A DNA stretch of 64,000 nt, from assembly GCF_006715055.1 (NCBI RefSeq), contig NZ_VFMN01000001.1, positions 1,488,001-1,552,000 on the forward strand, in the 5' to 3' direction. The notes beneath the pieces were generated by a model. That model did not search any database. It was not told where the DNA came from and saw only the letters and a list, made by a program, of their open reading frames with translations. Below, piece by piece: positions 25,479-48,011 of this stretch; the stretch's first letter is position 1; every line of letters begins with the position of its first letter. The DNA is from Lapillicoccus jejuensis. GTDB taxonomy: Bacteria > Actinomycetota > Actinomycetes > Actinomycetales > Dermatophilaceae. The translations under genes were made by a program, and so were the position numbers.

Positions 25479-25985
25479 ATGCCCACCCCCGTCAGCTTCC
25501 CGAGCGACCTCTTCCCGGGACCACCGAGCGTGCACGTCGTGCTGCCCGACGGCTGGGCGCCGGTCGTCGTGCCCGGGACGGTGCTGGCCGCCGGCCGGCT
25601 GCCGGGTGAGGACGAGCCCGCCGGACCGGTCCCCACGGTCGAGGTGCGGGTCGAGACGGGCGAGCCCGGGCTCGACGTCGCGGCCCCGCTCGCCGAGCTG
25701 CGGGGGTCCGTGGCGCAGCGGCCGGGCGGCGTCGCCTCGGACCCCTTCCGTGCGTCGCTCGGCGACCTCGAGCTCGTCGGGACCGACCTGTCGTGGGTGG
25801 AGGACGGCCTGGGCACGGTGCTCCAGGTCCACCTGCTCCACGTCCTGCCGGCGCTGGTCCCCGGTGGGCCCACCCGGCTGGTCCGGCTGACCGGGACCTG
25901 CGGAGGGCCGCGGGTGCGCGAGGAGTACGACGCCCTGCGCGAGGTCCTCTCGACGGCCACCGTCACCCCGTGGGCGGCGTCGTGA
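25479..25985 (+). CDS. Hypothetical protein, first gene of the kinase/secretion operon
   Basis: The 168-residue product starts at ATG 25479 (MPTPVSFPSDLFPGPPSVHV). I do not recognise the family. The pattern of short strands, the N-terminal LPDGWAP and the central DLSWVEDGLGTVLQVHLLHV resemble small Mog1/LpqN-like folds found near kinase or type VII loci, but this is a weak resemblance. There is no signal peptide or membrane helix. It overlaps the phosphatase gene by 4 bp (GTGA), so it is probably part of the same operon. Confidence 0.75.
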   Translation: MPTPVSFPSDLFPGPPSVHVVLPDGWAPVVVPGTVLAAGRLPGEDEPAGPVPTVEVRVETGEPGLDVAAPLAELRGSVAQRPGGVASDPFRASLGDLELVGTDLSWVEDGLGTVLQVHLLHVLPALVPGGPTRLVRLTGTCGGPRVREEYDALREVLSTATVTPWAAS

Positions 25986-26812
25986 TCCACGCCCCTGCCC
26001 TGGCCGCCGCGCTCGCCACCGACACCGGCCGGGTCCGCACCCTCAACGAGGACAGCGCCCTCGCGGCCGGCACGATCTTCGTCGTCGCCGACGGGATGGG
26101 CGGGCACGCCGCCGGCGAGGTGGCGAGCCGGATCGCCGCCGACGCCGTGGCCCGGCTCGACGGCCGCCCGGGCCTGCGCGTCGAGCACCTCGTCGCCCAG
26201 GTCGAGGAGGCCAACCGCGAGATCGTCGCCGAGGCCGGGCGCCACCCGGACCGGCGCGGGATGGGCACGACGGTGGCGGGGGTCGCGGTCGTCGACGTCG
26301 CCGGCGCGGCGCACTGGGCGGTCTTCAACGTCGGCGACTCCCGGGTCTACCACCTGCGCCCCGACTCGAGCCTCGTCCAGGTGTCCGTCGACCACTCCGA
26401 GGTGCAGGAGCTGGTCGACGCCGGCGTCATCACCGCGGAGCAGGCGCGCCGGCACCCGGCGCGGCACGTCGTCACCCGCTCCCTCGGCCACGACCCGCTC
26501 GGCGGCGTCGACACGTGGGTCGTCCCGCAGGAGGCCGGCGACCGGTTCCTCGTCTGCAGCGACGGCCTGACCAACGAGGTCGAGGACGCCGAGATCCGCG
26601 GCGTCCTGCTCGCCGTCCCCGACGTCGGCGCCGCCGCGCGCGAGCTGGTCCAGCGCGCCCGCGACCGCGGCGGCCGCGACAACATCACGGTGATCGTCGT
26701 CGCCTTCGGCCGGGTCCCCTCGGGCGGGGCCGACCACGACCGCGACGACGGCGAGGAGGAGACGGTCCCGAGGGACCGCCCGGTCGAGGGGGACGGACAG
26801 GTGACGTGGTGA
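25982..26812 (+). CDS. PP2C-family Ser/Thr protein phosphatase
   Basis: It is a metal-dependent phosphatase that probably reverses phosphorylation by the kinase two genes downstream. The 276-residue product starts at GTG 25982 in a GTGA overlap. Metal-binding and catalytic motifs are intact: ADGMGGHAAGEVAS near residue 37, FNVGDSRVYHL near 116, CSDGLTNEV near 186 and GGRDNITVIVV near 230. No membrane segment is present. The last 35 residues are an acidic tail. It precedes the zinc-ribbon/FHA gene with another 4-bp overlap. Confidence 0.95.
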   Translation: MIHAPALAAALATDTGRVRTLNEDSALAAGTIFVVADGMGGHAAGEVASRIAADAVARLDGRPGLRVEHLVAQVEEANREIVAEAGRHPDRRGMGTTVAGVAVVDVAGAAHWAVFNVGDSRVYHLRPDSSLVQVSVDHSEVQELVDAGVITAEQARRHPARHVVTRSLGHDPLGGVDTWVVPQEAGDRFLVCSDGLTNEVEDAEIRGVLLAVPDVGAAARELVQRARDRGGRDNITVIVVAFGRVPSGGADHDRDDGEEETVPRDRPVEGDGQVTW

Positions 26813-28740
26813 GCACCCCCGCGCGGGTCGACGTCCCCGTCATCCTCAGCGGCTGGACCTACATCGGCGGCGCGACCCTGCACCTCGTCGTCGGCCTGCC
26901 CGACACCGACGCCCGGCTCCTGCGCGCCAGCGACGTCGCGGACGCCGAGGACGACCTCGGCGCGGTCCTCGCCTCGCTCGACGCCGACCCCGGTCAGGGG
27001 GCCGGGCCGGCGTACGTCGGCACCGCCCCCACCGACCGCGGTCCTCGCGTCGTCGCGCGCGGGCCCGTGTGGGCGCAGCTCGACGGCGACGGGGACCCGC
27101 GCGTCCTCGTCCCCGGTGGCGGTGCCCTGGACGAGGTCGTCGACGAGGTCGGCGGCGCGGCGGTGCGCACCGTGCGGCTGCGGGTCGGTGCGCCGCCGGC
27201 CCCCGGGGCGCTCGCGGTCCCGGCGCTCGCGGTCCCGGCGCCCGCTCCGGCCGTGCCCGTGGTCCCGGTCGAGACGCCGGCCCCGGCCCCGGCCCCGGCG
27301 GCGTCGGGCGACGGCGGAGCCGGTCCGCGGGGGTGGCTCACCGAGGACGACCCCGACCCCGTGACCCCGGCGCCCGTCACCCCGCCGGCCGTCACCCCAC
27401 CGCCGCCCGCCCCTGCGTCCCCGTTCGCCACGCTGCCGCGATGGGGCGACCGGGCCCCGGTCCTCGCCACCCCACCGACCCCCGAGCCGACCCCCGAGCC
27501 GACCCCCGACCCGCTCGAGCACACGCTGCACGACGTGGCCCCGGTCCGGCCGGAGCCGCGGGTCGACCCGGTCTCCGCGGTCGACCCGGTCCCGGCGGTC
27601 GACCCGGCCCCCCCGGCCGCTCCCTTCCCGGCGAGCACCGCCCCGGACGACCCTCCGCCCGACTTCGGGCTCGACCAGCTCTTCTGGGGCACGGTGCAGC
27701 GCAGCGAGTACCTGCGCCGGCTCGAGCACGAGGAGCAGACGCGGGCCGAGGAGGCGCTCGCGGCCGAGGCCGAGGGCCCGGTCGAGGACCCGGTCGAGTC
27801 ACCCGAGCCGGTCCCCGCGCACGCCCCCGATCCCGTCGTCGAGGAGCCCGCGCCGCCGCCGGCCGTCGTCGACTCCCCGGCGGTCCGCCCGGCGCCCGAG
27901 CCCGCGGACGGGGGCCTGCTCATCTCCTCCACCCCGTGGAGCCGCCGTGACGGCGCCGCCCCGGCCCCCACCGCGGCCCCCACTGCTGCCCCTACCCCTA
28001 CCCCGGCCTCCACCCCGACCCCGGTCGCCCCTGCGCCCCCTCCGCCCCCCGTCGTGGTGAGCCCGGCGCCGTCCCCGGCCCCCGCCGGTCCCCGCTTCTA
28101 CTCCGGCTCGGGCCCGGCCGTCCCCGATGCCCCGGAACCCACCCGCTGGGGACCGACCGCCCCGAGCGCCCCCACCACCCCCACCGCCCCCACCGCCCCC
28201 ACCGGCGACGTCGACGACACCGACGAGGTCGACGACCGCACCCACGCCCGCAGCGACCTGCTCGGGGTGCCGGTCGCCGGACCGACGGTGCTCGCGGTGC
28301 GCTGCCCACAGGGGCACCCCAACCCGCCGTACGCCGGCTCGTGCCGCGCCTGCGGCGCGCCCGTCCCCGACCAGCAGCCGGTGCGGATCGCCCGCCCGCC
28401 GCTCGGGGTGCTGCGCCTGTCGTCCGGCGACACCGTCACCCTCGACCGGGGTGTCCTGCTCGGCCGCGCCCCGCGGACCCCCGACGTCCCCGCCGGCGAC
28501 CGGCCGCACGTCGTCAAGGTCGCGAGCCCCCGCAAGGACGTCTCGCGCACCCACCTCGAGGTCACCCTCGACGAGTGGCAGGTCCTCGTCCGCGACCTGC
28601 AGACGACCAACGGCACGACGGTGGCCCTGCCCGGGCAGGCCCCGGTCCTGCTCCGCTCGGACGAGCCCCGCCTGATCGAGCCCGGCACCCGGATCTCGCT
28701 CGCGGACGAGGTCGAGGTCACCTTCGAGGTCGAGCGGTGA
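26809..28740 (+). CDS. Zinc-ribbon and FHA domain protein with long disordered middle
   Basis: The 643-residue product starts at GTG 26809 (VSTPARVDVPVILSGW). Residues 1-130 form a folded domain of unknown type. Residues 130-480 are Pro/Ala/Val-rich and disordered. A zinc ribbon (CPQGHPNPPYAGSCRACGAP) is near 498-520. A C-terminal FHA domain near 535-643 carries GVLLGRAP, SRTHLEV and TTNGTTV. FHA domains bind phosphothreonine, so it is a likely substrate or adaptor of the neighbouring kinase. It overlaps genes on both sides by 4 bp. The disordered middle has many Thr sites. Confidence 0.85.
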   Translation: MSTPARVDVPVILSGWTYIGGATLHLVVGLPDTDARLLRASDVADAEDDLGAVLASLDADPGQGAGPAYVGTAPTDRGPRVVARGPVWAQLDGDGDPRVLVPGGGALDEVVDEVGGAAVRTVRLRVGAPPAPGALAVPALAVPAPAPAVPVVPVETPAPAPAPAASGDGGAGPRGWLTEDDPDPVTPAPVTPPAVTPPPPAPASPFATLPRWGDRAPVLATPPTPEPTPEPTPDPLEHTLHDVAPVRPEPRVDPVSAVDPVPAVDPAPPAAPFPASTAPDDPPPDFGLDQLFWGTVQRSEYLRRLEHEEQTRAEEALAAEAEGPVEDPVESPEPVPAHAPDPVVEEPAPPPAVVDSPAVRPAPEPADGGLLISSTPWSRRDGAAPAPTAAPTAAPTPTPASTPTPVAPAPPPPPVVVSPAPSPAPAGPRFYSGSGPAVPDAPEPTRWGPTAPSAPTTPTAPTAPTGDVDDTDEVDDRTHARSDLLGVPVAGPTVLAVRCPQGHPNPPYAGSCRACGAPVPDQQPVRIARPPLGVLRLSSGDTVTLDRGVLLGRAPRTPDVPAGDRPHVVKVASPRKDVSRTHLEVTLDEWQVLVRDLQTTNGTTVALPGQAPVLLRSDEPRLIEPGTRISLADEVEVTFEVER

Positions 28741-30416
28741 GCCCGCGCAGCCAGCACCGCCGGCCCGGCCAGCACGGACCAGACCCGGCGAGCGCGTCCG
28801 GGCCGCCGGACATCCCGGGGATGAGCTACCTCGAGCCGCTCGGCTCGGGCGGGTACGCCGACGTCCACCTCTACCAGCAGCAGTCACCCCGCCGGTCGGT
28901 CGCCGTCAAGGTCCTCAAGGGCCGCGGCCTTACCGACGACCTGCGCCGCCAGTTCGTCGCCGAGGCGGACACGATGGCGCTCTTCGGCAACCACCCGCAC
29001 ATCGTCCAGGTCTTCTGGGCCGACACCGCGCCCGACGGCCGGCCGTACCTCGTCATGGAGTACTACCCGCCGCCGCACCTCGGCGAGCGGGCCAAGCGCA
29101 AGCCGCTCACCGTCCAGGAGGTGCTGCGCACCGGCGTGCAGCTGGCCTCCGCCGTCGAGACCGCGCACCGCGGCGGGGTCGTGCACCGCGACATCAAGCC
29201 GGCCAACGTCCTCGTCGACCACTACGACCAGCCGGCCCTCACGGACTTCGGGATCGCCGGGCGCGGCGGCGCGGACGCCGACGTCGCCGACACGGGCGAC
29301 ATCGGCGTCAGCGTGCCGTGGGCGCCGCCGGAGGTCCTCACCGGCGACAGCAACGGCGACGTGGCCGGCGACGTCTACTCCCTCGCCGCCACCCTGTGGC
29401 ACCTGCTCGTCGGCCGCTCCCCGTTCGCGGTCCCCGGCGGCGACAACACCCAGACCGGGCTGACGACGCGGATCAAGCGCTCCGAGGTGCCCCGCACCGG
29501 ACGCGCCGACGTCCCCCTCTCGCTCGAGCGCGTCCTCGCGCGCGGCATGGCCAAGGACCGCCGGCTGCGGCCCGCGTCCGCCCTCGCCTTCGCCCGCGAG
29601 CTGACCGCGGTCGAGCAGGAGCTGCGGCTGCCGCCGACCCCGGTACGGGTCCGCGACGCCGGCGGCGGCACCGTGCTCGAGGGCCCGGGCGCCGGCCCGG
29701 AGGATCGCACGAGCGTCAAGGCCCCCTCCCGGGTGCAGGCCCAGCCACCCACCCCCGCGACGCCGTACGGCGCCCCCGCCGCACCCCCCGCCGCACCCGT
29801 GGGTCCCGCCGGCGAGGTCGAGGAGCGGACCGTGCGCCGCTCGGACGGGCCGTCCGGCACCGCCGCCCCGGGCCGGGCGGCGGGCGACCTCGGCCCGCAG
29901 CGCACGCCGCGGCTCATCGACGAGGACCTCGTCCCGCCGGCCGCGCGCCCCGCTCCCGACGGTCCGCCGGCCGGCCCGAGGGGGCGCCCCGGCTGGCTGG
30001 TCCCCGTCCTCGCGGCGGCCGTCGTCGTCCTGCTCGTCGTCGTCGGGGTCGCCGTGCTGCGCCCGCGCGGCGCGGCGACCCCCGCGGCGCCGACCCCGTC
30101 CCGCACGGTGTCCACCCCGAAGGACACCAGCGCGCTCGGCGACGCCGTCTACACGGCCCCGACCGTGACGGCGAGGGCCTCGGCGGGCGCGGTCGGTTTC
30201 ACGTGGACCTACGACGGGCCGGAGAAGGGCGACACCTTCCGGGTCTTCGTCGGCCCGACCAAGGACGCCGCGCAGCAGGCCGCCCCGCAGACGGTGACGA
30301 CCCCCGCCCTCACCCAGAGGGTCGCGGCCGGGACGACCCGGTGCGCCCAGGTCCAGGTCGTGCGCGGCGGGGTCGTCTCGCCGCCGTCGGACACGACGTG
30401 CGAGCGGGCGCTGTGA
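28737..30416 (+). CDS. Transmembrane Ser/Thr protein kinase (PknB-type)
   Basis: The 559-residue product starts at GTG 28737. The kinase domain spans about 30-300 with LGSGGYADV (P-loop), VAVKVLKG (Lys), VVHRDIKPANVLVDH (catalytic loop), LTDFGIAG and WAPPEVL, so it should be active. A disordered Pro-rich segment leads to one membrane helix (LVPVLAAAVVVLLVVVGVAVL) near 421-441. About 105 extracellular residues, resembling a fibronectin III-like fold, follow. There are no PASTA domains. Gene order phosphatase-FHA-kinase-FHA suggests one signalling unit. Confidence 0.94.
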   Translation: MSPRSQHRRPGQHGPDPASASGPPDIPGMSYLEPLGSGGYADVHLYQQQSPRRSVAVKVLKGRGLTDDLRRQFVAEADTMALFGNHPHIVQVFWADTAPDGRPYLVMEYYPPPHLGERAKRKPLTVQEVLRTGVQLASAVETAHRGGVVHRDIKPANVLVDHYDQPALTDFGIAGRGGADADVADTGDIGVSVPWAPPEVLTGDSNGDVAGDVYSLAATLWHLLVGRSPFAVPGGDNTQTGLTTRIKRSEVPRTGRADVPLSLERVLARGMAKDRRLRPASALAFARELTAVEQELRLPPTPVRVRDAGGGTVLEGPGAGPEDRTSVKAPSRVQAQPPTPATPYGAPAAPPAAPVGPAGEVEERTVRRSDGPSGTAAPGRAAGDLGPQRTPRLIDEDLVPPAARPAPDGPPAGPRGRPGWLVPVLAAAVVVLLVVVGVAVLRPRGAATPAAPTPSRTVSTPKDTSALGDAVYTAPTVTARASAGAVGFTWTYDGPEKGDTFRVFVGPTKDAAQQAAPQTVTTPALTQRVAAGTTRCAQVQVVRGGVVSPPSDTTCERAL

Positions 30417-31120
30417 TCCACGGGCGGGTGACGGTCGCGTTCTGCGGCGAGGAGCACACGGCGACGCCGGGGACGACGCTCACCATCGGGCGCAGCGGCG
30501 ACGTCGAGATCGACGACAACCCGTTCCTGCACCGCACCTTCCTCAAGGTCACCTACGACGGCGGGCTCTGGTGGCTGGTCAACGTCGGCTCGACGCTCAC
30601 CGCGACGGTCGCCGACGAGCACGGTCTCTTCCAGGCGTGGCTCAACCCGGGGGCGCGGATCCCGCTCGCGCTGAGCCGGCTGCTCGTGTGGTTCACCGCC
30701 GGCCCGACGACCTACGACTTCGAGGTCCTCGTCGACTCGCCCGCCTTCGTCGCCGTGGCCGCGGGGGAGGACCCGCCCGCCCGCGGCGCCGAGCCGGGGG
30801 AGGCGACGGTCGGCCGGGTGTCGTTCACCCCCGACCAGAAGCGGCTCGTCGTCGCGCTGTGCGAGCCGTTCCTGCGCCGTACGGCGCCCGGCGCCGCCGC
30901 CATCCCCTCCTCCGCCCAGGCCGCGGAGCGGCTCGGCTGGACCCTCACCCGCTTCAACCGCAAGCTCGACAACGTCTGCCAGAAGCTCGCCGACGCCGGG
31001 ACCCGCGGCCTGCACGGCGGGGTCGGCAAGCTCGCGAGCAACCGCAAGGCCCGCCTCGTCGAGCACGCCCTGTCGACGAAGATCGTCACCGAGGACGACC
31101 TGGCGCTGCTCGACGCGTGA
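30413..31120 (+). CDS. FHA-like protein with C-terminal helical, possibly DNA-binding domain
   Basis: The 235-residue product starts at GTG 30413, overlapping the kinase stop. Residues 1-110 resemble an FHA domain: TLTIGRSGDVEIDDNPFLHR, then WWLVNVGS. The canonical Ser-x-x-His is reduced to FLHR, so phosphopeptide binding is uncertain. Residues 135-235 are helical, with SSAQAAERLGWTLTRFNRKL, which looks like a winged-helix reader. A phosphorylation-responsive regulator is a reasonable guess. There is no membrane helix. A 288-bp gap without a recognised gene follows. Confidence 0.78.
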   Translation: MIHGRVTVAFCGEEHTATPGTTLTIGRSGDVEIDDNPFLHRTFLKVTYDGGLWWLVNVGSTLTATVADEHGLFQAWLNPGARIPLALSRLLVWFTAGPTTYDFEVLVDSPAFVAVAAGEDPPARGAEPGEATVGRVSFTPDQKRLVVALCEPFLRRTAPGAAAIPSSAQAAERLGWTLTRFNRKLDNVCQKLADAGTRGLHGGVGKLASNRKARLVEHALSTKIVTEDDLALLDA

Positions 31121-31408: not shown

Positions 31409-34400
31409 ATGAGGACAGCCGCATCGGCACGTCGACGTCTCGGCGTGGCCTCGCTCGTCGTGCTCGCGCTCGTCGCCGGCGTGCTCACCTGGGTGGCGCT
31501 GCGCGCCGAGGGCGAGCTCGTGCGGAAGACCGACCTGCACGACGGCGGGGTCTGGGTGACCAACGGCCAGCGCGCGCTGCTCGGCCGGCTCAACAAGCCC
31601 GCCCAGCAGCTCGACGCCGGGGTCGCCGTCGACCAGACCGGCGGGTCCGGGCTCGACGTCCTCCAGGACGGTGCCTCGGTCGTCGCGCTCAGCGCCGCGA
31701 CCAACCAGGCCACCCCGGTCGACACCGCCTCCGCCACGCTCGCCACCGACGGCGTCCTCACCCTGCCGAAGCCGGCCGCGACCACCGGGCTGGCCTACGC
31801 CGCCCAGCCGCCGGTCGACCTGCGCGGCGGCAGCGTCGCCGTGGTCGACCCGGCCACGGGGAAGCTGTGGGCCGCGCGCACCGCCGCCTCGGGCACCCCG
31901 ACCCGCGTCGCCCTCGACGCCCTCCAGGCGCAGAGCACCCCGGTCGCCACCGTCGGGGCCGGCGCCTCCGTCGCGGTCGGCGCCGACGGCACGGTGTACG
32001 CCGTCTCCGGCACCACCGGCCGCCTCGTCACCCTCCCCGTCGGCGACGACGGCACCTTCGCCGCGCCGGTCACCCGCAGCCTCGGCGTGACGAGCAAGGC
32101 CCTCGAGGTCACCGCGGTCGGGGGCCGCTGGGTCGTCCTCGACGCCGCGACCGGCCTGCTGCGCGCCGCCGGGCTCGACCGGCCCGTCGAGGCCGCCGAC
32201 GTCTCCGACGGCGGGCTCGCCCAGGCCGCCCTCCAGCAACCGGGCCCGGCCGCCACCTCGGTCCTGCTCGCCGGCCCCGACGGCCTGTCCGCCGTCCCCC
32301 TCGACGACGGCGGGGCCTCCGGCACCCTCGTGCAGGTGCCGGACACCGCCCGCCGCGGCACCGGGCCCGCGTCGGCGCTGAAGCCCACCGCCCCGGTCCG
32401 CCTCGGCTCGTGCGCGCACGCGGCGTGGGCCGGCCCGACGAGCACCTGGTACGGCCGGGCGTGCGGCTCGGTCCTCGACGGCGGCGACGTCGCCCCGGGG
32501 GCGAAGCCCCCGCAGGCCCTCGAGCTCGGCGGTCTCGGCGCGGCGACGCGGCGCGACGGCGTCCGGCTGCGGACCAACCGCGGCCTCGTCGTCCTCAACG
32601 ACCTCGACAGCGGCAACCTGTGGGACCTCGACAACACCCCGCTGAAGATCGACGACTGGGACGCCGTCGTGCCGCCGCCCCAGCAGCAGGACAAGAACGC
32701 CAAGAAGGACCCGAACCAGCGCGACGACCAGGTCGTGCGCACCCCGCCGAAGGCCGAGCCCGACCAGCTGCGGGTGCGCGCCGGCCGCACGTCGACCCTG
32801 CACGTGCTCGACAACGACTCCGACGCGACCGGCTCGATCCTCGCCATCGCCCCCGGCGACGTCAGCCAGCCCTCGGTCGCCGGCGTGACGGCCGCCGTCT
32901 CGTCCGACGGCCAGGCCGTCGACGTCACGGTCCCCGACGACCCGGCCTCGAGCGAGTTCTCCTTCACCTACCGGGTCACCAACGGCACCGGCGGCGCCAC
33001 CTCCGCGTCGTCGGCGCGGGTGACGGTGACCGTCGTCGACGACGCGGTCAACGGGGCGCCGTACGTGCGCCAGGGGCAGGCGCAGCTCGCGAAGGCGCGC
33101 TACGCCGCCGTCCCCGGCGGGCACGTCGCGGTCGGGGTCGTCGCCGACTGGCGCGACCCCGAGAACGACCCGCTCACCGTCGAGGCGAGCACCCCCGGCG
33201 TGGGCGTCGACCCCTCCGGGGCGCTCGCCGTCACCGCCCCGACGAGCCCCGGCGCCCTCACCGTCCGGTACGCCGTCGCCGACGGCCACGGTGGCTCCAC
33301 CGCCGGCAGCGTGCCGGTCACCGTCCTCGCCGACGACGCCCGCCCGGTGCCGCCGCTGCCGCAACCGGACGTCGTGCGCGCCGTCGCCGGCAAGCCGGTC
33401 CAGATCCGGCCGCTCGGCAACGACGTCCCCGGCGCCGACCCGACCGACCCCGACGCCCGCATGCGGCTCGCCGCCCAGGTCCGCGCCCCCGGCCAGCTGC
33501 TCCTCGACACCGACCTCGACACCGGCGTCCTCACCGTGACCGGGCGGACCCCGGGCACCGTCTTCCTCACCTACGCCGCCCAGGTCGGGTCGGCGGTCGC
33601 CCCGGGCCGGATCCGCGTCGACGTGCTGCCCGACCCCGGCGCCGACCCCTCCCCGGTCGCCGCGCCCGACGCCGCCACCGTCCGCGGGCAGTCACCCGTC
33701 GTCACCGACGTCCTGGCCAACGACTCCTCGCCCCGCGGCGACGTGCTCGTCGTCCAGAAGGTGCTGAGCGACGCATCGTGGCTGCGCGCCTCCGTCGTCC
33801 AGGGTCGCTTCCTGCGCATCGAGGCGACCTCGTCGCTGTCCGACCAGCCGACCCGACGCGGGCTGCTGCGCTACACCGTCTCCGACGGGACGAAGACCGC
33901 CGTCGGCGTCGTCGCCGTCGTCCAGCAGCCCCCCGCCGACGCGCCCGTGCCGGACGTCGAGGACGACGAGGCGGTCGTGCGCACCGGCGACGTCGTCACC
34001 GTCCCGGTCCTCGACAACGACACCGTCTCCGGCGGCGTCCCGCTCGTCCTCGACCCCCGGTCGGTCAAGGTCGTCCAGGGCGGCGGCCAGGCCTTCGCCT
34101 CCGGGTCGGTGCTGCGCTACATCCCCGACGCGACCCCGCCGGGCGCCGACCAGGTCGTCACCCTGGAGTACGGCGCCCACCCCGAGGGCTCGGTCGCCAC
34201 CGAGCGCACCGGGCGGGTCACCGTCACCGTCAAGCCGTTGCCCACCGCCGCGACCCCCGACCAGCCACCGACGGCGCGCTCCTTCTCGGCCAGCGTCACC
34301 GCCGGTGACACCATCACGATCACCGTGCCGACCTCCGGCGTGGACCCCGACGGCGACCTCGCGTACGTCGTCGGCGTGGTCGGCGGCGACGGCAAGGCCG

Positions 34401-37774: not shown

Positions 37775-37816
37775 CGCCACGGCCCTCCCCCCACCACCAC
37801 CAGCAGGAGAACCCCC

Positions 37817-40143: not shown

Positions 40144-42806
40144 CCTCACCGTTCCAGGCCCCCCCGGAGCACCTGCTGCGCCGGGAGCCGACCGCCCGCG
40201 AGAAGGCCGCCGCCCGGCTGCGCGCGCTGCGGCCCGGCGCCGCCCGGCTCGTCGACGCCGGCTTCGCCGCCGCGCTCGTCCTCGTCGCGCTGCTCGGCCT
40301 GCGCACGACGTACGACGGCTGGCTGTGGCTGGTCCCCGGCGTGGTCGGGCTCGTCCTCGGGGTCGTCGTCACCCACGCGGTGCTCGCGTGGCGCCTGCCC
40401 GGGATCGTCGCCGCCCTCGTGCTCACCGTCCTCTACGCCCTGCTCGGCGGCGCCGTCGCGACCCGCGACGACCTGCTGTGGGGGTTCCTGCCCACCGGGG
40501 CCACCGTCACCGAGCTGGCCCGCACCGCCGTCCTCGGCTGGAAGCAGCTGCTCACCTCGCTCCCGCCCATCGACTCGCGCGGCCCCCTCATGGCGCTGCC
40601 GCTCGTCCTCGGTCTCGTCGGCGGCGCCCTCGCCTACGGGCCCGCCGCGCGGTGGCGGCTGCCCGCCGCCGCCGTGCCGGTCCCGCTCGCGCTGCTGACC
40701 GTCAGCCTGCTCCTCGGCACCCCGGAGCCCGCCGGGGTCCTCGTCATGGGCCTCGGCTCCGGCCTCCTGCTCGTCGGCTGGGTCGCGCTGCGCGGCCGGT
40801 TCGCCCGGCCCTCGGTCGACCACGGCACGGTCGGCACCGACCGCACCGCGGCCACCTGGCGGGTGGCGACCACCGGCGTCCTGCTCCTGCTCGCCGGCAC
40901 GGGGGGCTGGCTGCTCGGGCCGGGCCTGCCCGGCGACGACGGCAGCCGCACCATCTGGCGGACGGCCCTCGTGCCGCCGTACGACGTCAGCCAGCTCCCC
41001 AGCCCGCTCGCCGGCTTCCGCAAGTACACCCAGCCCAACCCGGCCAAGCTCTACGACCGCACGCTCTTCACCGTCTCGGGGCTGCCGGCCGGCACGCCGG
41101 TGCGGCTGGCCACGCTCGACTCGTACGACGGCTCGGTGTGGGGCGCCGGGACCGCCGCGGCCGACGCCGGCGACGGGTCCGGCGAGGGCCCGGGTGCCGC
41201 CGGGGGAGCCACCGGGGACGGCGCCACCTTCCAGCGCGTCGGCAGCCACATCGCCGCCTCCGGCGACGGCACCGCGCGCACCGTCACGGTGAGCATCCCC
41301 GACCGCGGCTGGTCCGACGTGTGGCTGCCCACGGTCGGCACGGTGACCGGCGTCCGGTTCGCCGGCGACGGCGCCGACGGGCTCGCCGACGACCTGCGCT
41401 TCAACGTCGACACCGGCACCGGCATCGTCCCGGCAGGCCTGCAGGGCGGCGACCGCTACACCCTCGAGGCCGACGTCCCGGCGACCCCGACCACCCTCCC
41501 GAAGGACCTCGACGTCGCGAGCGGCAGCATCATCGACACCCAGGCGGTCGGGTTCGCCGACGACAAGGTGGCGACCTGGACGGCGAACCTCACCTCGCCG
41601 TGGCAGCGGTTCACCGCCGTCGCGCGGGCGATGTCGTCGGACGGCGCGTACACCGACGGCGGCACCCCCGGCAGCTACCAGAACGTCTTCCTCCCGGGCC
41701 ACAGCCTCAGCCGGATGACCCGGTTCTTCAAGTCCAGTCAGCTCGCCGGCGACGACGAGCAGTACGCCTCGGCCCTCGCCCTCGTCGGCAACCGGATCGG
41801 GGTGCCGACCCGCGTCGTGCTCGGGGCGATCCCGACGCGGGCGGCCGCCGACGGCTCGCTGCCCGTGACGGGCAAGGACGTGCACGCCTGGGTCGAGGTG
41901 CAGACCGAGGACGGCGGCTGGTTCCCCGTCCTGCCGCAGGACTTCGTCCCGAACCGGAACAAGCAGCCGCAGCAGCAGCAGCAGCGCAGCGAGGAGAAGA
42001 AGGTCGGCGCGCAGGTCCCGCCGCCGGTCTCGGCCAACCCGCCGAGCGTCCTGCAGGGACCCGACCAGTCGCAGAACTCGACCCAGGTCAAGAAGCCGAC
42101 CAAGCCCAACCCGCTCGACCCGTCGCAGTGGCCGTCGTGGATGCGGTGGCTCGTCGTCGGGGTCGGGGGACCCGTCCTCGTGCTCGGGCTGGCCTACCTC
42201 GCGCTGCGCCTGGCCAAGCGCCGCCGCGGGAGGCGGCGCCGGACCCGCGGGTCGATGCCGGAGCGGGTCGCCGGCGCCTGGGCCGAGGTCGTCGACACCG
42301 CCCAGGACCTCGGCATGCCGCTCGCGCCGCGGCTCACCCGGCTCGAGCAGGCCACCGTCCTCGACGCGCTGCTCGCGACGCCCGGTCGGGGCATCCCGAG
42401 GTCGCTGTCCGGCGCGGCCCTCGCCGCGGGCGCGACCTCCACCGAGCAGGGCGCCGTCCTGCGCGAGCAGACCCGCCGCGAGGTGCGGCAGCGGGCGGCC
42501 GGCGAGGGCCCCCTGCCCTCGCTGCGGCCGCTGGCCGACACGACGAACGGCCTCGTCTTCGCGGCGGCGGACCCGACACCGGAGCAGGTCGACGCCGTGT
42601 GGGTGCAGGTGCGCGACGTGACCCGGCGGCTGCGCCGCCGCGCGTCCCGGCGTCAGCGGCTGCGCAGCGACGTCAGCCTCGGAGGGCTGCGCAAGGACCG
42701 CCGGGCCACCCGGGCGCCGTCGGCGGGCACCGCGTCCCGCGGCGCGCTGGGCGGGCTCACCGGTCTGCGCGCCCGGCGCGGCGGCGAGGGCGGGGCGACG
42801 GCGTGA
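40140..42806 (+). CDS. Transglutaminase-like membrane protein lacking the catalytic cysteine
   Basis: The 888-residue product starts at ATG 40140. Several N-terminal membrane helices lie within residues 35-270, with an extracellular transglutaminase-like domain near 290-620 and another helix near 665-690. A cytoplasmic basic tail follows. The domain retains the His (KDVHAWVEV near 580) and the downstream Asp region (WFPVLPQDF). At the cysteine position, however, it reads GDDEQYASALAL, with Asp539 instead of Cys (41754-41756). A non-catalytic structural or binding role is likely. The Gln/Lys-rich linker near 605-660 is low in complexity. GTGA overlap with the ATPase gene. Confidence 0.88.
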   Translation: MTSPFQAPPEHLLRREPTAREKAAARLRALRPGAARLVDAGFAAALVLVALLGLRTTYDGWLWLVPGVVGLVLGVVVTHAVLAWRLPGIVAALVLTVLYALLGGAVATRDDLLWGFLPTGATVTELARTAVLGWKQLLTSLPPIDSRGPLMALPLVLGLVGGALAYGPAARWRLPAAAVPVPLALLTVSLLLGTPEPAGVLVMGLGSGLLLVGWVALRGRFARPSVDHGTVGTDRTAATWRVATTGVLLLLAGTGGWLLGPGLPGDDGSRTIWRTALVPPYDVSQLPSPLAGFRKYTQPNPAKLYDRTLFTVSGLPAGTPVRLATLDSYDGSVWGAGTAAADAGDGSGEGPGAAGGATGDGATFQRVGSHIAASGDGTARTVTVSIPDRGWSDVWLPTVGTVTGVRFAGDGADGLADDLRFNVDTGTGIVPAGLQGGDRYTLEADVPATPTTLPKDLDVASGSIIDTQAVGFADDKVATWTANLTSPWQRFTAVARAMSSDGAYTDGGTPGSYQNVFLPGHSLSRMTRFFKSSQLAGDDEQYASALALVGNRIGVPTRVVLGAIPTRAAADGSLPVTGKDVHAWVEVQTEDGGWFPVLPQDFVPNRNKQPQQQQQRSEEKKVGAQVPPPVSANPPSVLQGPDQSQNSTQVKKPTKPNPLDPSQWPSWMRWLVVGVGGPVLVLGLAYLALRLAKRRRGRRRRTRGSMPERVAGAWAEVVDTAQDLGMPLAPRLTRLEQATVLDALLATPGRGIPRSLSGAALAAGATSTEQGAVLREQTRREVRQRAAGEGPLPSLRPLADTTNGLVFAAADPTPEQVDAVWVQVRDVTRRLRRRASRRQRLRSDVSLGGLRKDRRATRAPSAGTASRGALGGLTGLRARRGGEGGATA

Positions 42807-45800
42807 AGCTGAAGTTCACCCTCCGCTCCGGCACGGGGGAGACCGACCTCGTCGCGACCGTCGACGCCACCGCGACGGTGGGGGACCTGGCCCAGCACCT
42901 GGCCCTCGCCGACCCCGCGCGCGGCGCCGGCGGGTACGCCGTCCTCGCCGGCGAGATGACGCTGTCGCTCGAGGACGGCGACCACCGCTCGCTCGACCCG
43001 CGCACGACCATCGGCGACAGCGGCCTGTCCTCCGGCGCCGTCGTCTCGCTCACCCGTGCCGGCGGGACCTACGTCGACGCCGGGCGCACCGCCGCGACGG
43101 TCGTCATCGTCGCCGGCCCCGACGAGGGCCGCGAGTTCCCGCTGCCGCGCGGGACGGCGTACATCGGCCGCGGCCGCGGCTGCGAGGTGTCGCTCGCCGA
43201 CGCCTCGGTCTCGCGCCGGCACGCCCGGCTCGTCCTCACCGACGTCGCCGAGATCGTCGACCTCGGCTCGGCCAACGGCCTCACCGCCGGCGGCCAGCAG
43301 GTCACCCGGATGACCCTGCGCGGCGGGGGCGACGTCATCCGGCTCGGTGACACCGCGCTGCAGGTGCGGCTCGCGGGCGGCGGCGGCCCCGGCGCGCAGG
43401 GCACCGGCGTGCTCGGCACCGAGGGCGGCACGGTCTCGTTCTCGCGCTCGCCGCGGGTGCTCCCCGTGGTCGAGGGCCGCACCGTCGAGGTGCCCGAGCT
43501 GCCCGAGCGGCCGGGCAAGCAGCCGTTCCCGTGGATCCAGCTGCTCGTGCCGGTCTTCATGGCCGTCGTCCTCTACGCGATCACGAAGAGCTTCCTGAGC
43601 TTCATCTTCCTGGCGATGATGCCGTTGCTCGTCGTCGGCAACAGCTGGGACCAGCGGCGGCAGGGTCGCAAGCTCTTCGAGCAGGCGATGACCGAGTTCG
43701 GCGAGGACCTCGACGTCCTCGTGGCGGGGATCCGCGCCGAGCACGAGCGCGAGCGCGTCGGCCGCCTCGCCGAGCACCCCTCGGGCGCCGAGGTGCTCGC
43801 CGCCGCCGACGCCCGCGGCCCGCTGCTGTGGTCGCGCCGGCCCCGCGAGGAGCGTTTCCTCACGCTGCGGCTCGGTCTCGGCTCGCAGCCGTCCCGCAGC
43901 ACCCTGACGATGCCCAAGGTCGGCCGGTCCAAGGCCGAGGCCTGGCTCATGGTCGCCGAGCGGATGGCCGGCCTGGACCGCGTCGACGGCGTCCCGGTCG
44001 TCGCCGACCCGCTCACGCACGGCGCCCTCGGCGTCTGCGGCCCGCGTCCCGCCGCGCTCGGCGCCGCCCGCTCGCTCGTCCTGCAGGCCGCCGGGCTGCA
44101 CTCGCCCGCCGACCTCGTCGTCGTCGCCTTCGCCTCGGTCGGTGCCGCCCAGGACTGGGACCTGCTCAAGTGGCTCCCGCACACCTCCTCGCCGCACAGC
44201 CCGCTCACCGCCCGGCCGCTGGCCAGCTCGGGCCCCGCCTGCTCGGTCCTCGCCGACGAGCTCGAGGACCTCGTCGAGGCGCGGGCCGGGCAGGAGCCCG
44301 GGCGGCGCGACGGCCCGGCGGGCGACGGCCCCGCCGTCCTCGTCCTCGTCGAGGGCGACGCCCCCGTCGAGCGCGCCCGGCTCGTCGAGATCGCCGAGCA
44401 GGGCGCCGCCGTCGGCGTCGTCGTGCTGTGGGTGGCGCCGCGGCAGGAGCTGCTGCCCGCGGCCTGCGCGACCTTCCTCGTCGCCGGCGAGGACGCCGCC
44501 GGCGGGTCGCTCGTCGGCTACGTCCACGCGGGCGAGTCGGTGCAGCCGGTGCAGGTCGACGCGGTGTCGGCGCAGGAGGCGGCGTACGTCGCCCGGCGCC
44601 TGGCCCCCGTCGTCGACTCCGGCGTCGCGGTCGAGGACGACTCCGACCTGCCCCGCGCCGTCTCCTTCCTCGCCCTCAGCGGCACCGAGATCGCGAGCAG
44701 CCACACCGCGCAGATCGAGCGCTGGGTGGAGAGCCGGTCGGTCCTCACCGGGCCCTTCGCGCCGACGACGCCGTACCGGCGCCCGGGCAACCTGCGCGCG
44801 GTGGTCGGGCAGTCCAGCCAGGGCGCGCTGACCGTCGACCTGCGCAGCGACGGGCCGCACGCCCTCGTCGGCGGCACGACGGGCGCCGGCAAGTCCGAGC
44901 TGCTCCAGGCGTGGATCCTCGGCATGGCCGCGGCGCACTCGCCGCAGCGGGTGACCTTCCTGCTCGTCGACTACAAGGGTGGGTCGGCGTTCCGCGACTG
45001 CGTCAACCTGCCGCACACGGTGGGGCTGGTCACCGACCTCTCGCCCCACCTCGTGCGCCGGGCGCTGGAGTCGCTCTCGGCCGAGCTGCGCTACCGCGAG
45101 CACCTGCTGGCCCGGCACAAGGCCAAGGACCTCGTCGAGCTCGAGCGGCGCGGCGAGGTCGAGGCCCCGCCGAGCCTGGTCATCGTCGTCGACGAGTTCG
45201 CGGCCCTCGTCCACGAGGTGCCGGAGTTCGTCGACGGCGTCGTCAACGTCGCCCAGCGCGGGCGCTCGCTCGGGCTGCACCTCATCCTCGCCACCCAGCG
45301 CCCGGCCGGCGTCATCAAGGACAACCTGCGCGCCAACACCAACCTGCGGATGGCGCTGCGGATGGCCGACGAGGCCGACAGCGACGACGTCCTCGGCTCG
45401 ACCGCGGCGGCGTTCTTCGCGCCCGACCTGCCCGGCCGCGCGATGGTCAAGTCCGGTCCGGGCCGGCTGACGCCGTTCCAGACCGGCTACGCCGGGGGGT
45501 GGACCTCGGACACCCCGCCGCCGGCCGAGCTGACCGTCGTCACCCTCGCCTTCGGCGAGGAGGTCGAGTGGGAGCGGCCCGACACGCCCGACGACCTCGA
45601 GGGCCGCGACCCCGGCCCGACCGACATCCAGCGGGTCGTCGCGACGATCCGCGAGGCGGCCGACACGGCGCGGATCCCCTTGCCCCGCAAGCCCTGGCAG
45701 CCCGAGCTGCAGACGGTCTACGACCTGGCCCGGGTGCCGACGCAGCGCAGCGACGCCGAGCTCGTCTTCGGGGTCGCCGACCACCCGCAGGACCAGGACC

Positions 45801-47341
45801 AGCCGCCGATCGCCTTCCACCCCGACACCGAGGGCAACATCGCCGTCTACGGCTCGTCCGGCTCGGGCAAGACCGTGCTGCTGCGCACCCTCGCGGTCGC
45901 GGCGGGCTTCAGCCGGACCGGGCCGTGCCAGGTCTACGCGCTGGACTTCGGCAACCGCGGCCTGGCCATGCTCGAGCAGCTGCCCTACGTCGGCAGCGTC
46001 GTCCCCGGCGGTGACCACGAGCGGGTCGTCCGGCTGCTGCGGCACCTGCGGGCCGTCATCGACGAGCGCGCCGTGCGCTACAGCCGGGTGTCCGCCTCGA
46101 CGATCACCGAGTACCGCCGCCTGTCCGGCGACGCCGGCGAGGCGCGCATCCTCGTCCTCGTCGACGGCATGACGGCGTTCCGGCAGGCCTACGAGGTCTC
46201 CGGCCGGCTGCCGTACCTCGACCTGCTCAGCGGGCTCGCCGGCGACGGCCGCCCGGTCGGGGTGCACTTCGTCATCGCCGCCGACCAACGCACCGGTATG
46301 CCGAGCTCGCTGGCCGCGGCGGTCCAGCGCCGGGTCGTCCTGCGGCTCGCGGCGGTCGACGACTACGCCGTCCTCGGGGTCCCCATGGACGTCCTGACGA
46401 TGGCCTCGCCGGCCGGGCGCGGCCTCTTCGGCGACGACGAGCTCCAGGTCGCCGTGCTCGGCGACTCGCCCGACGTCTCGGTCCAGGCCGCCGCCGTCGC
46501 GCAGTTCGCCGAGCTGTGCCGGCGCAACGGCGTGCCCGCCGCCGCGCCGATCGAGAGCCTCGCGGCGCGGGTCGAGCTGTCGAGCCTGCCGACCCGGTAC
46601 GACGGCCTGCCCGTCGTCGGTCTCGCGTCGGAGACGTTGGGGCCCAAGACGATCGAGCCGCGCGGCAGCTTCGTCGTCACCGGACCGTCGGGGTCCGGGC
46701 GGACGACCGCGCTGGCGACGATCGCCTGCGCGCTGGACCGCTTCGCCGCCGGGGCGGACCTCTTCCTGCTCTCGTCGCGACGGCGCAGCGAGCTGGCGGG
46801 CCTGCCCGTGTGGACCGGGGCGGCGTACGGCGCCGACGACGTCGCGGCGCTCGCCCAGCAGCTGCTCGAGCGGGTCACCGGGGGCCGGGAGAGCGCACCG
46901 CTGGCCGTCGTCCTCGAGCGCGTCGACGACCTCGGCGAGAGCGCCGCCGCCACGGTGCTCGAGGCGCTGGCCAAGGCGCTGCTCGACACCGACCAGTTCG
47001 TCGTCGCCGAGGGCGAGGCGCAGTTCTTCGGGTCGAACTTCGGCCTGTCGGGCGTCCTCAAGACCTCGCGCTCGGGGCTCGCGCTGCACCCCAACGGCGA
47101 CGAGGGGCACGCCGTCTTCAAGTCCGCCGTGCCCGGCCTCAACCGCGCCGAGCTCCCCGAGGGCCGCGGCTTCCTCGTCGAGCGCGGCCGCTTCGAGCTG
47201 GTCCAGATGGCCGTCCGAGGCGAGCGGGAGGGGGGAGCCGATGGGGAGTGCTCCCCATCGACAGGCCCCGTGGACGCCCCTAGCGTCGTCCACGAACAGC
47301 AGCACCACACGGTCCGACCGGCGCCAGGCCGGGGGGAATGA
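42803..47341 (+). CDS. EssC/EccC-like FtsK/SpoIIIE ATPase with ubiquitin-like and FHA domains
   Basis: This is the probable motor of a type VII-like secretion system, acting on WXG100 proteins. The 1512-residue product starts at GTG 42803. Residues 1-85 resemble a ubiquitin-like (YukD/EccD-type) fold. An FHA domain near 95-200 has YIGRGRGCEV, SRRHARL and SANGL. Two membrane helices lie near 243-285. Three FtsK-like domains follow. D1 has Walker A GGTTGAGKSE near 690 and Walker B IVVDEFAAL near 797. D2 has GSSGSGKT near 1018. D3 has GPSGSGRTT near 1293 with Arg replacing Lys. FHA placement resembles Firmicute EssC rather than actinobacterial EccC. Confidence 0.92.
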   Translation: MKLKFTLRSGTGETDLVATVDATATVGDLAQHLALADPARGAGGYAVLAGEMTLSLEDGDHRSLDPRTTIGDSGLSSGAVVSLTRAGGTYVDAGRTAATVVIVAGPDEGREFPLPRGTAYIGRGRGCEVSLADASVSRRHARLVLTDVAEIVDLGSANGLTAGGQQVTRMTLRGGGDVIRLGDTALQVRLAGGGGPGAQGTGVLGTEGGTVSFSRSPRVLPVVEGRTVEVPELPERPGKQPFPWIQLLVPVFMAVVLYAITKSFLSFIFLAMMPLLVVGNSWDQRRQGRKLFEQAMTEFGEDLDVLVAGIRAEHERERVGRLAEHPSGAEVLAAADARGPLLWSRRPREERFLTLRLGLGSQPSRSTLTMPKVGRSKAEAWLMVAERMAGLDRVDGVPVVADPLTHGALGVCGPRPAALGAARSLVLQAAGLHSPADLVVVAFASVGAAQDWDLLKWLPHTSSPHSPLTARPLASSGPACSVLADELEDLVEARAGQEPGRRDGPAGDGPAVLVLVEGDAPVERARLVEIAEQGAAVGVVVLWVAPRQELLPAACATFLVAGEDAAGGSLVGYVHAGESVQPVQVDAVSAQEAAYVARRLAPVVDSGVAVEDDSDLPRAVSFLALSGTEIASSHTAQIERWVESRSVLTGPFAPTTPYRRPGNLRAVVGQSSQGALTVDLRSDGPHALVGGTTGAGKSELLQAWILGMAAAHSPQRVTFLLVDYKGGSAFRDCVNLPHTVGLVTDLSPHLVRRALESLSAELRYREHLLARHKAKDLVELERRGEVEAPPSLVIVVDEFAALVHEVPEFVDGVVNVAQRGRSLGLHLILATQRPAGVIKDNLRANTNLRMALRMADEADSDDVLGSTAAAFFAPDLPGRAMVKSGPGRLTPFQTGYAGGWTSDTPPPAELTVVTLAFGEEVEWERPDTPDDLEGRDPGPTDIQRVVATIREAADTARIPLPRKPWQPELQTVYDLARVPTQRSDAELVFGVADHPQDQDQPPIAFHPDTEGNIAVYGSSGSGKTVLLRTLAVAAGFSRTGPCQVYALDFGNRGLAMLEQLPYVGSVVPGGDHERVVRLLRHLRAVIDERAVRYSRVSASTITEYRRLSGDAGEARILVLVDGMTAFRQAYEVSGRLPYLDLLSGLAGDGRPVGVHFVIAADQRTGMPSSLAAAVQRRVVLRLAAVDDYAVLGVPMDVLTMASPAGRGLFGDDELQVAVLGDSPDVSVQAAAVAQFAELCRRNGVPAAAPIESLAARVELSSLPTRYDGLPVVGLASETLGPKTIEPRGSFVVTGPSGSGRTTALATIACALDRFAAGADLFLLSSRRRSELAGLPVWTGAAYGADDVAALAQQLLERVTGGRESAPLAVVLERVDDLGESAAATVLEALAKALLDTDQFVVAEGEAQFFGSNFGLSGVLKTSRSGLALHPNGDEGHAVFKSAVPGLNRAELPEGRGFLVERGRFELVQMAVRGEREGGADGECSPSTGPVDAPSVVHEQQHHTVRPAPGRGE

Positions 47342-47358
47342 CGAAGGGAACAGCAGTC

Positions 47359-47631
47359 ATGGCATGGGTTGGCATGAACGACCAGCAGGTCCGGGCCCAG
47401 GGCACCAAGCTCCAGGCCGAGGCCGACAAGATCCAGGCGCTCATCAGCAAGGTCGACAGCGAGATCGAGCACATCAGCAGCAGCTGGCACGGCGACGACC
47501 AGAAGCAGTTCCAGAGCGACTGGAACAACCACAAGGCCGAGCTGACGCAGGCCAAGCAGCTCCTCGTCCAGATGAAGCAGAAGATCGACCAGGAGGTCGC
47601 GCAGCAGGACAAGACCTCGTCGTCGTACTGA
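47359..47631 (+). CDS. WXG100-family protein 1
   Basis: It is a small helical-hairpin secretion substrate. The product has 90 residues from ATG 47359 (MAWVGMNDQQVRAQG), placed behind an AAGGGA site. ATG 47338, overlapping the ATPase stop, is an alternative adding 7 residues. The turn motif SSSWHGDDQKQF, near residues 41-52, has WHG in place of WxG proper; length and heptad pattern fit the family. It lies directly after the FtsK-like ATPase, the usual place for esx-type pairs. Confidence 0.92.
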   Translation: MAWVGMNDQQVRAQGTKLQAEADKIQALISKVDSEIEHISSSWHGDDQKQFQSDWNNHKAELTQAKQLLVQMKQKIDQEVAQQDKTSSSY

Positions 47632-47701
47632 CGGCCCGAGGCACCGCCGCGCACCACCCACCACACGTCAGCAGCCAGCAGCAGAGCAGGGAGAGATCAT
47701 C

Positions 47702-47977
47702 ATGGGCGTCTTCGCCAAGGGCATGGACCCGGCCGTCATCGACGCGTCGGGCGACAAGTTCAACCAGTTCAAGACCGAGCTCATCGACATCGCCAACGCG
47801 GTGACCTCGACGGTCCAGACCATCCACAGCAACTGGGAGGGGACGGACGCGAGCCAGTTCGTCTCCGACTGGAACGGCAAGAAGGCCCAGGTGACGGCGG
47901 CCGCCGACACCCTCGGCCAGCTGGGCCAGAAGCTGAAGTCCAACGCGCAGCAGCAGCAGAGCACGTCGGCGGGCTGA
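47702..47977 (+). CDS. WXG100-family protein 2
   Basis: The 91-residue product starts at ATG 47702 behind AGGGAGAG. The WEG turn (HSNWEGTDASQF) is near residues 42-53 between two helices, as in EsxA/EsxB-type proteins. A Gln/Ser-rich tail ends the chain. It probably forms a heterodimer with WXG100 protein 1, encoded 70 bp upstream. A strong terminator follows, marking the operon end. Confidence 0.93.
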   Translation: MGVFAKGMDPAVIDASGDKFNQFKTELIDIANAVTSTVQTIHSNWEGTDASQFVSDWNGKKAQVTAAADTLGQLGQKLKSNAQQQQSTSAG

Positions 47978-48011
47978 GGCCGGGTCCCGAGGGACCCGCA
48001 CCGCACGCCAC

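Follow-up and report, generated by a model that had tools for sequence, protein, structure and literature searches.

A 64,000-nucleotide stretch of the Lapillicoccus jejuensis genome (a single contig of 4.58 Mb), here called the window, carries at positions 25479-47977 a run of 12 genes, all on the + strand. The run joins an ATPase of the EssC kind and two WXG100 proteins, as known from type VII secretion systems (T7SS), to a kinase, a phosphatase, proteins with forkhead-associated (FHA) domains and a set of envelope genes resembling the PFNA operon of bifidobacteria. The arrangement is real and recurrent and we have found no description of it: a T7SS of the EssC kind with a predicted ubiquitin-like/FHA head built into its ATPase, accompanied by a PFNA-type kinase and envelope set. 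We hold with moderate confidence that the 12 genes work together as a phosphorylation-controlled T7SS differing from the subtypes found in print. Coordinates are window positions and the genes are labelled g1 to g12:

g1, 25479..25985, + strand: small protein of the LpqN/DcrB kind, predicted to be an effector chaperone or a protein of the envelope
g2, 25970..26812, + strand: PP2C-type protein phosphatase (PF13672, 4.3e-14)
g3, 26806..28740, + strand: long, proline-rich protein with a C-terminal FHA domain (PF00498, 6.7e-6, residues 571-632)
g4, 28737..30416, + strand: Ser/Thr kinase with one transmembrane (TM) segment and an extracytoplasmic C-terminal part (PF00069, 7.7e-34)
g5, 30413..31120, + strand: FHA-like protein (by eye) with a strongly conserved C-terminal region, possibly helix-turn-helix (HTH)
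g6, 31409..37774, + strand: 2121-residue giant protein with a TM segment, a predicted beta-propeller, Ig/cadherin and then fibronectin type III (FnIII) repeats (Big_9 2.2e-38, fn3 2e-27)
g7, 37817..38788, + strand: MoxR-type AAA+ ATPase (AAA_3 3.7e-61)
g8, 38788..40143, + strand: DUF58 protein with a TM segment (PF01882, 0.00026, 20.7 bits against a cut-off of 23.4)
g9, 40140..42806, + strand: polytopic, cysteine-free transglutaminase-like protein (TGM; Transglut_core 9.9e-12, TgpA_N 6.4e-10)
g10, 42803..47341, + strand: EssC-type ATPase with a predicted ubiquitin-like part (1-86), an FHA domain (96-192), two TM segments (~242-281) and FtsK-type ATPase domains
g11, 47338..47631, + strand: WXG100 protein (PF06013, 7.6e-9)
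g12, 47702..47977, + strand: WXG100 protein (PF06013, 4.9e-10), resembling two candidate effectors in their WXG domains
two GC hairpins, 47978..48051, + strand: likely end of transcription

An earlier reading of this stretch (the original prediction) had counted eleven genes in one direction, with overlaps of 1 to 4 bp at seven junctions and a strong terminator at the end. The common direction and the tight overlaps were confirmed, but there are 12 genes, and overlaps of 1 to 16 bp occur at 8 of the 11 junctions when GTG 28737 is taken as the kinase start, which gives a 4-base overlap with the stop of g3. The overlaps measure 16 bp (g1/g2), 7 bp (g2/g3), 4 bp (g3/g4), 4 bp (g4/g5), 1 bp (g7/g8), 4 bp (g8/g9), 4 bp (g9/g10) and 4 bp (g10/g11); as gene starts were chosen by hand, the exact g1/g2 and g2/g3 values are uncertain. 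The three remaining junctions have intergenic gaps of 288, 42 and 70 bp. Strong hairpins do lie 3' of position 47977 (-61.7 kcal/mol, z -4.61, none of 200 shuffles folding as well), but they lack a U-tract and a scan for terminators gave 0 matches.

The original prediction of an FtsK-type ATPase with two WXG100 proteins was upheld by FtsK_SpoIIIE and two WXG100 matches. The best model for g10 was that of EssC (TIGR03928, 7.1e-147, 491 bits, cut-off 778), ahead of the EccC models, all of which also stayed below cut-off. Against solved chains the g10 profile scored 356 bits with 4nh0 (deposited as FtsK/SpoIIIE, and which we take to be an EccC), 352 bits with YukB and 267 bits with EccC5. A DNA translocase was ruled out as the identity of g10, the EssC/EccC profiles lying far above FtsK. 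Its domains run in the order ubiquitin-like, FHA, TM, ATPases, and the protein is predicted to begin with the ubiquitin-like domain by fold and profile only. This call was made from the secondary structure of an AlphaFold2 (AF2) model, profile search and Pfam, because fold searches with the N-terminal model listed only FHA-type chains; direct profile comparison of the head with the ubiquitin-like domain of the genome's own EccD-like protein (see below) was weak (probability 8.8). Both WXG100 genes, which lie immediately 3' of g10, are over the Pfam cut-off. The run therefore has the features by which type VII systems are broadly recognized, i.e., an EccC/EssC-type ATPase with N-terminal TM segments and adjoining WXG100 genes.

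The kinase, phosphatase and FHA set attributed to the locus by the original prediction was recovered by protein kinase, PP2C and FHA matches. The kinase keeps the motifs HRDIKPAN and DFGIA and has a single TM segment followed by a C-terminal part that is FnIII-like by eye only; HRD is present in 69 of 72 homologues. The phosphatase scores 218.8 bits with the Stp1 model (cut-off 230) and contains the DGMGG, GDSR and RDNITV motifs, the first of which is found in 68/69 homologues. A profile of 20 homologues of g1 matched the uncharacterized PDB entry 3lyd at 7e-35, LpqN at 9.5e-5 and, weakly, the type VI secretion chaperone EagT6 at 0.019. Pfam LpqN was found in 9/20 and DcrB in 4/20 of these homologues and neither in g1 itself, and in several loci a homologue is encoded close to WXG genes. 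For g5 no Pfam family and no clear PDB family was found (a weak FHA chain, E 0.56). Its C-terminal conservation was seen in an alignment of 13 sequences, and an HTH is only hinted at, HTH_50 and HTH_8 each matching one of the 13 homologues (E 0.047 and 0.087).

The trio of MoxR, DUF58 and transglutaminase-like proteins and the 2121-residue Ig/FnIII protein were likewise confirmed by domain matches, with DUF58 just below cut-off. A TM scan gave the giant protein one N-terminal segment (~5-31). The AF2 model of residues 1-454 (mean pLDDT 84.7, pTM 0.82) predicts a beta-propeller at ~48-415 that matches EMC subunits, NirF, BamB and other propellers loosely, with query TM-scores of ~0.4. The window TGM contains zero cysteines. 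Among its 82 homologues above 600 bits the pattern GxCExYA occurs in 0 and G[DN][DEQ]EQ[YF]A in 79, with neither pattern in 3; 15 sequences were also aligned. The TgpA motif served to assign the position of the catalytic cysteine, and the PDB alignment of TGM starts just past this presumed position. An active cysteine transglutaminase was ruled out by the absence of GxCExYA (0/82) and of any cysteine in g9, and the same two observations make g9 a likely pseudo-enzyme.

Models of EccB, EccD, EccE and mycosin (MycP) matched none of the proteins of the 12-gene run, as the original prediction had it for the locus. Directly downstream (48092-53403) lie genes for an extracytoplasmic function-type sigma factor, a small protein, a CHAT protein (- strand) and a mycosin-like subtilase. 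The subtilase begins at 52162, 4.2 kb past the run, and scores 75.8 bits with the mycosin model against a cut-off of 278.75. As a member of the system it was not supported: a homologue was found in 5/120 loci, all close relatives, in a scan in which 40 of the 120 loci extend only ~1.5 kb past the ATPase, too short to show a subtilase. Homologues of the sigma factor, CHAT protein and subtilase trail the locus in the same number (5/120), namely Lapillicoccus, two Terrabacter, Terracoccus and one Intrasporangiaceae record.

The recurrence of the arrangement was addressed by searching for the ATPase in 198 genomes of one order (leaving out G116, whose match is in two pieces), 58 of which, the source genome included, gave a match above 800 bits. 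Orthologue loci of 40 of the other 57 genomes, chosen by hand for family spread, were compared with 20 loci of weaker ATPases, hand-chosen too. MoxR, DUF58 and TGM were each found in 24/40 orthologue loci and in 0/20 of the others (Fisher p 2.4e-6 for the trio); this value is only a guide because these 60 loci and the window also supplied the hits from which the linkage profiles were built, so that detection is favoured, and because genomes within a family are not independent. The counts in orthologue versus other loci were 21/40 and 0/20 for the giant protein, 21/40 and 0/20 for the kinase, 20/40 and 2/20 for PP2C, 23/40 and 1/20 for g5, and 18/40 and 7/20 for WXG100. Both the recurrence of the gene grouping across genomes and the co-occurrence of giant protein and ATPase, on which the original prediction depended, were thus observed. 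The trio was seen without a hit to the giant protein in three loci (L020, L022 and L025), in all of which MoxR lies at the margin of the sequence retrieved, and contig ends truncate two of the 40 loci (L047 and L049). The low WXG100 count is partly due to these 40 stretches ending ~1.5 kb past the ATPase, and in three loci (L033, L039 and L042) two small WXG-like proteins seen by eye downstream were missed by the profile. The genes occur in two arrangements. In the window and its near relatives the kinase set is followed by FN3-MoxR-DUF58-TGM and then the ATPase, and in the second arrangement FN3-MoxR-DUF58-TGM comes first, followed by phosphatase-FHA-kinase-g5 and the ATPase.

Named loci outside the profile-building set were scanned as well. 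In the best 80 of at least 577, a choice hence biased to close relatives, TGM was present in 72, TGM or g5 in 79 and WXG100 in 45; the lone exception with neither TGM nor g5 sits on a contig that starts 147 bases 5' of the ATPase gene. These loci include Terrabacter, Janibacter, Arthrobacter, Brachybacterium, Microbacterium, Cellulosimicrobium, Nocardioides, Propioniciclava, Dactylosporangium, Saccharothrix, Blastococcus and Jatrophihabitans; we take the named genera with the ATPase to belong to several other orders. An Ilumatobacter locus has g5 and FHA with no TGM within 2 kb upstream, and the locus of a Bifidobacteriaceae metagenome-assembled genome has the kinase set and no TGM, at a contig end. 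In Luteimicrobium xylanilyticum a second ATPase matching the profile lies ~5 kb 3' of the first (L100:19508-20212 onward). One record titled Sporosarcina beigongshangi (L113, NZ_JADHDY010000023.1) carries a copy of an Arthrobacter-like locus and is probably assembly contamination.

Several observations weigh against the proposal that all 12 genes form one machine. WXG100 was detected by profile in only 18/40 and 45/80 loci, and true absence in some is possible. Neither TGM nor g5 was found in 14 of the 40 orthologue stretches fetched, one of which (L047) is the contig-cut locus mentioned above. No trio was found in ~20 kb downstream in 13 of those 14 genomes (6.6 kb for G064), nor in 20 kb further upstream in six of those genomes and 7.6 kb in G019; these extended stretches yielded one g5 homologue (L160, in G063) and, in L164, a kinase match scoring just 22 bits. 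One locus (L086), read over 9.4 kb upstream, has g1, FHA and g5 and lacks kinase, phosphatase, giant protein and trio. Motif conservation is also incomplete: strict DFG[IVL]A is present in only 13/72 kinase homologues, the DN pattern in only 19/69 PP2C homologues and the strict FHA pattern in only 83/118 homologues. Finally, a genome of the same order, G003, has no ATPase match at E<=1e-60. This genome (1.83 Mb, GC 62.8% over 800 kb), whose GC content and gene order suggest a Bifidobacterium, carries a cluster of Ser/Thr protein kinase, FN3, MoxR, DUF58 and TGM in PFNA order, related to the window proteins by profile and BLAST, with 50% identity for MoxR, 39% over 287 residues for the kinase, 35% over 224 for DUF58, 33% over 298 for TGM and 27% over 1354 (4e-55) for the giant protein. 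Its TGM reads GDSEQYA, with no cysteine there and cysteines elsewhere in the protein. A search of 800 kb of G003 with the ATPase profile returned matches of 301, 100 and 48 bits, which may be ordinary FtsK-type proteins. The PFNA-type module can therefore occur alone and, taken with the 14/40 ATPase loci lacking TGM and g5 in the stretches fetched, the modules can separate. With modules that come apart, the suggestion in the original prediction that the giant protein is the outer part of the apparatus is not supported as it stood, and the original prediction as a whole is borne out in part. A reduced form, with an ATPase of the same clade and no kinase, giant protein or MoxR set in the stretches read, was seen in L033, L035, L037-L044 and L052; in L033 and L039 a multi-TM protein is encoded immediately upstream of the ATPase.

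These findings bear on a rival view, in which the neighbourhood houses two separate machines, one being the EssC/WXG100 secretion core and the other an envelope module of PFNA type that senses or adheres alone. Such a partition would fit the ATPase loci without PFNA genes in the stretches fetched and the PFNA-ordered cluster of G003 without an ATPase match, and also the report that bifidobacterial FN3 binds TNF-alpha, the cluster being read there as one for signalling and adhesion (PMC8430577). It is less easily reconciled with the tight overlaps which run in the window from MoxR through DUF58, TGM and ATPase to WXG, with the members staying together in many loci under two different arrangements, or with the finding of the trio in 0/20 loci of other ATPases. 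We regard two independent machines as rather unlikely, though deserving serious consideration, and continue to favour a single system.

The genome also contains an ESX locus of its own at 2012780-2020626 (L012, L013), ~477 kb from the run, with genes for EccC, EccB, an EccD-like protein and two WXG100-like proteins, and with a subtilase nearby. Its EccC is above both EccC cut-offs (698.9 and 652.4 bits), whereas the window ATPase is below both. EccB is over cut-off and is the only EccB match found in the genome. The EccD-like protein scores 36 bits with TIGR03920 (cut-off 94.95), its YukD domain is over cut-off, and a genome search for YukD (E<=0.001) gave this one match. Like the window run, this locus thus combines an EccC-type ATPase with WXG100 genes, on the same chromosome; it differs in having EccB and an EccD-like protein and no FHA protein or kinase among the proteins scanned there. 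The original prediction had considered that eccB, eccD and eccE elsewhere in the genome might work with the window ATPase, and EccB and an EccD-like protein are indeed present, but they stand beside a separate EccC above both cut-offs. That the window ATPase is an accessory motor using this EccB/EccD channel appears very improbable, given that the ESX locus has its own EccC and that the window ATPase has its own predicted ubiquitin-like domain and its own two WXG100 partners.

Two tandem genes at ~2.533 and ~2.535 Mb (L014:5756-6790 and L014:8183-9187) encode proteins with N-terminal WXG domains that are 31-32% identical to g12 and 16-19% to g11. The one ESX WXG protein compared matched none of them, the E-values of this comparison referring to a set of five sequences. 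The tandem proteins have differing C-terminal parts and each is followed by a gene for ~225 residues without a Pfam match. They are candidate effectors with putative partner or immunity genes.

From sequence comparison we infer secretion, phosphorylation control and a role for the giant protein, and the following mechanism is proposed. As in EssC/EccC systems, the WXG100 pair would bind the ATPase in the cytoplasm; it would drive or accompany the export of WXG-headed effectors. The transmembrane kinase may sense the envelope and phosphorylate a partner that docks on the FHA domain of the ATPase, with PP2C resetting the switch. The fused ubiquitin-like domain would stand in for a free YukD/EsaB or for the EccD domain. 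MoxR and DUF58 might remodel or assemble the membrane part, and the polytopic pseudo-transglutaminase together with the propeller-Ig-FnIII rod could form the envelope part, in the slots held elsewhere by EccD/EccE and by EccB (or EsaA, TsdI). More tentatively, and as a possibility that we do not consider probable, this may be a subtype widespread in Actinomycetota, with ubiquitin-like and phosphopeptide-reading parts built into the motor and a MoxR-assembled unit of DUF58, dead transglutaminase and envelope-spanning rod replacing the Ecc/Ess core; PFNA, so far interpreted as a sensor of host immunity, would then be its envelope half that has lost the motor. The ubiquitin-like start of the ATPase, the missing TGM cysteine, the second T7SS and the match to PFNA had no part in the original prediction. 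If the system secretes, it would be a T7SS without the known membrane cores and with its regulation written into the operon, and soil actinobacteria would become a place in which to ask how the channels of T7SS are built.

The PFNA operon is pkb2-fn3-aaa-atp-duf58-tgm, to which some species add prpC, a hypothetical gene and fha, and the accessible parts of its descriptions call it unique to bifidobacteria (PMC8430577) and without orthologues found in other organisms (PMC6803598); the organisation of the mycobacterial moxR operon is said to resemble it (PMC12067865). The window has the same set of kinase, FN3 giant, MoxR, DUF58, TGM, phosphatase and FHA genes. From kinase to TGM it follows PFNA order, FN3-MoxR-DUF58-TGM being identical, except that g5 stands between kinase and giant. 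It differs in that the phosphatase and an FHA gene precede the kinase and do not follow TGM, and in that the set is joined to ATPase and WXG100 genes; the words FtsK and secretion do not appear in the part of PMC8430577 available, nor FtsK and WXG in that of PMC6803598. The 12-gene run is thus likely to include relatives of a cluster reported as unique to bifidobacteria. This would change the view of PFNA on two points, namely genes reported to lack orthologues outside bifidobacteria (PMC6803598) and a TGM presumed, in the sections available, to be a cysteine enzyme (PMC8430577). In the open-licence full-text literature, preprints aside, we found no description of an EssC ATPase or WXG100 protein joined to a MoxR-DUF58-TGM set.

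With T7SSa (ESX) and T7SSb (Ess/Yuk) the window run shares the FtsK-type ATPase family and WXG100 proteins. Compared with T7SSa, no EccB or EccD match was found in the run and no EccE among the window proteins scanned, a genome search for EccE not having been made. Compared with T7SSb, the scanned window proteins gave no hit for EssA, EssB or EsaA, for which a genome search was not made either. No free EsaB/YukD was found, the sole YukD match in the genome being in the ESX EccD-like protein, and a ubiquitin-like fold is instead predicted at the N-terminus of the ATPase. A 2006 paper reported YukD fused to the ESX protein with 12 TM segments, and fusion to the ATPase is not mentioned in the parts of that report seen (PMC1779556). 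A 2024 census recognizes T7SSa to T7SSj, of which T7SSd is, in the text available, the only new subtype in Actinomycetota (PMC11217815). In the same source T7SSc and T7SSe resemble the window run in having a kinase and a PPM phosphatase, T7SSc also having a vWA component, and T7SSe two WXG100 proteins, an FHA protein and a ubiquitin-like protein. They differ in that both are reported only in Bacillota, the T7SSc ATPase lacks FHA, and no MoxR or transglutaminase appears in the text concerned (PMC11217815).

The place of the ATPase among its relatives was addressed with a FastTree phylogeny of 80 sequences (1398 columns; supports read after re-rooting), in which a window clade of 39 members (support 1.0) excludes EccC, several other EssC-like groups and the group that contains L060 with proteins of Bifidobacterium sp. 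LC6, Alloscardovia and Actinomyces. One comparison locus (L074) lies at the base of this clade, the node without it having a support of 0.1, and the node joining the clade to L070/L071 is weak (0.284); in a first tree 61/61 orthologues were monophyletic. The window ATPase thereby falls in a clade of actinobacterial ATPases distinct from EccC and from the T7SSd-like ATPases of Bifidobacterium, the TsdC clade being represented by L060 and the named Bifidobacterium, Alloscardovia and Actinomyces proteins by layout and taxon and not by a published accession list. Other EssC-like ATPases of the order (L056, L058, L061, L063 and L066) lie beside genes that are Tad pilus-like by length, TM pattern and order; the Tad-linked T7SSg and T7SSh are, in the text seen, reported only from Bacillota (PMC11217815).

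T7SSd, the remaining comparison, was described for Olsenella and Bifidobacterium with five core components, TsdA, TsdC, TsdD, TsdH and TsdI (Garrett et al., 2024; PMC11217815), and in 2016 Bifidobacterium choerinum and B. dentium had been reported to carry a T7SS cluster (PMC4965825). It is Actinomycetota that carry T7SSd too, and its EssC-type ATPase with FHA, membrane Ser/Thr kinase, WXG100 and large anchored protein of Ig type are shared with the window run (PMC11217815). A T7SSd-like locus (L060, in G128) has kinase, small open reading frame (ORF), 1797-residue ORF, ATPase and 93-residue ORF in this order, in which kinase and ATPase were assigned by profile and the 1797- and 93-residue ORFs by layout. 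The run might on these grounds be a member of T7SSd with extra genes, which we think improbable. The window ATPase is in another clade, no L060 ORF matched the profile of the window giant, no TsdH-like small single-TM protein was found among the 12 by TM scan, and the available text on T7SSd gives it no ubiquitin-like protein, a giant with a Sec signal and a C-terminal TM segment, and no mention of MoxR, transglutaminase or fibronectin (PMC11217815). The mark of having no ubiquitin-like protein is soft, as the start of L060-type ATPases may be ubiquitin-like too. T7SSd-like ATPases (L060:13344-17915 and P0241-P0259; Bifidobacterium, Alloscardovia, Actinomyces) have a start of ~80 residues whose end resembles the window ubiquitin-like head (profile probability 88.6 over 34 columns, 16 sequences; FHA control 1.7), and T7SSd, reported to lack a ubiquitin-like part, could have it in this start. 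Set against T7SSd, the window run is distinguished by the separate clade of its ATPase and the predicted ubiquitin-like start of that protein, by PP2C, further FHA proteins, MoxR, DUF58 and a cysteine-free TGM, and by a giant protein with an N-terminal TM segment, followed by a predicted propeller.

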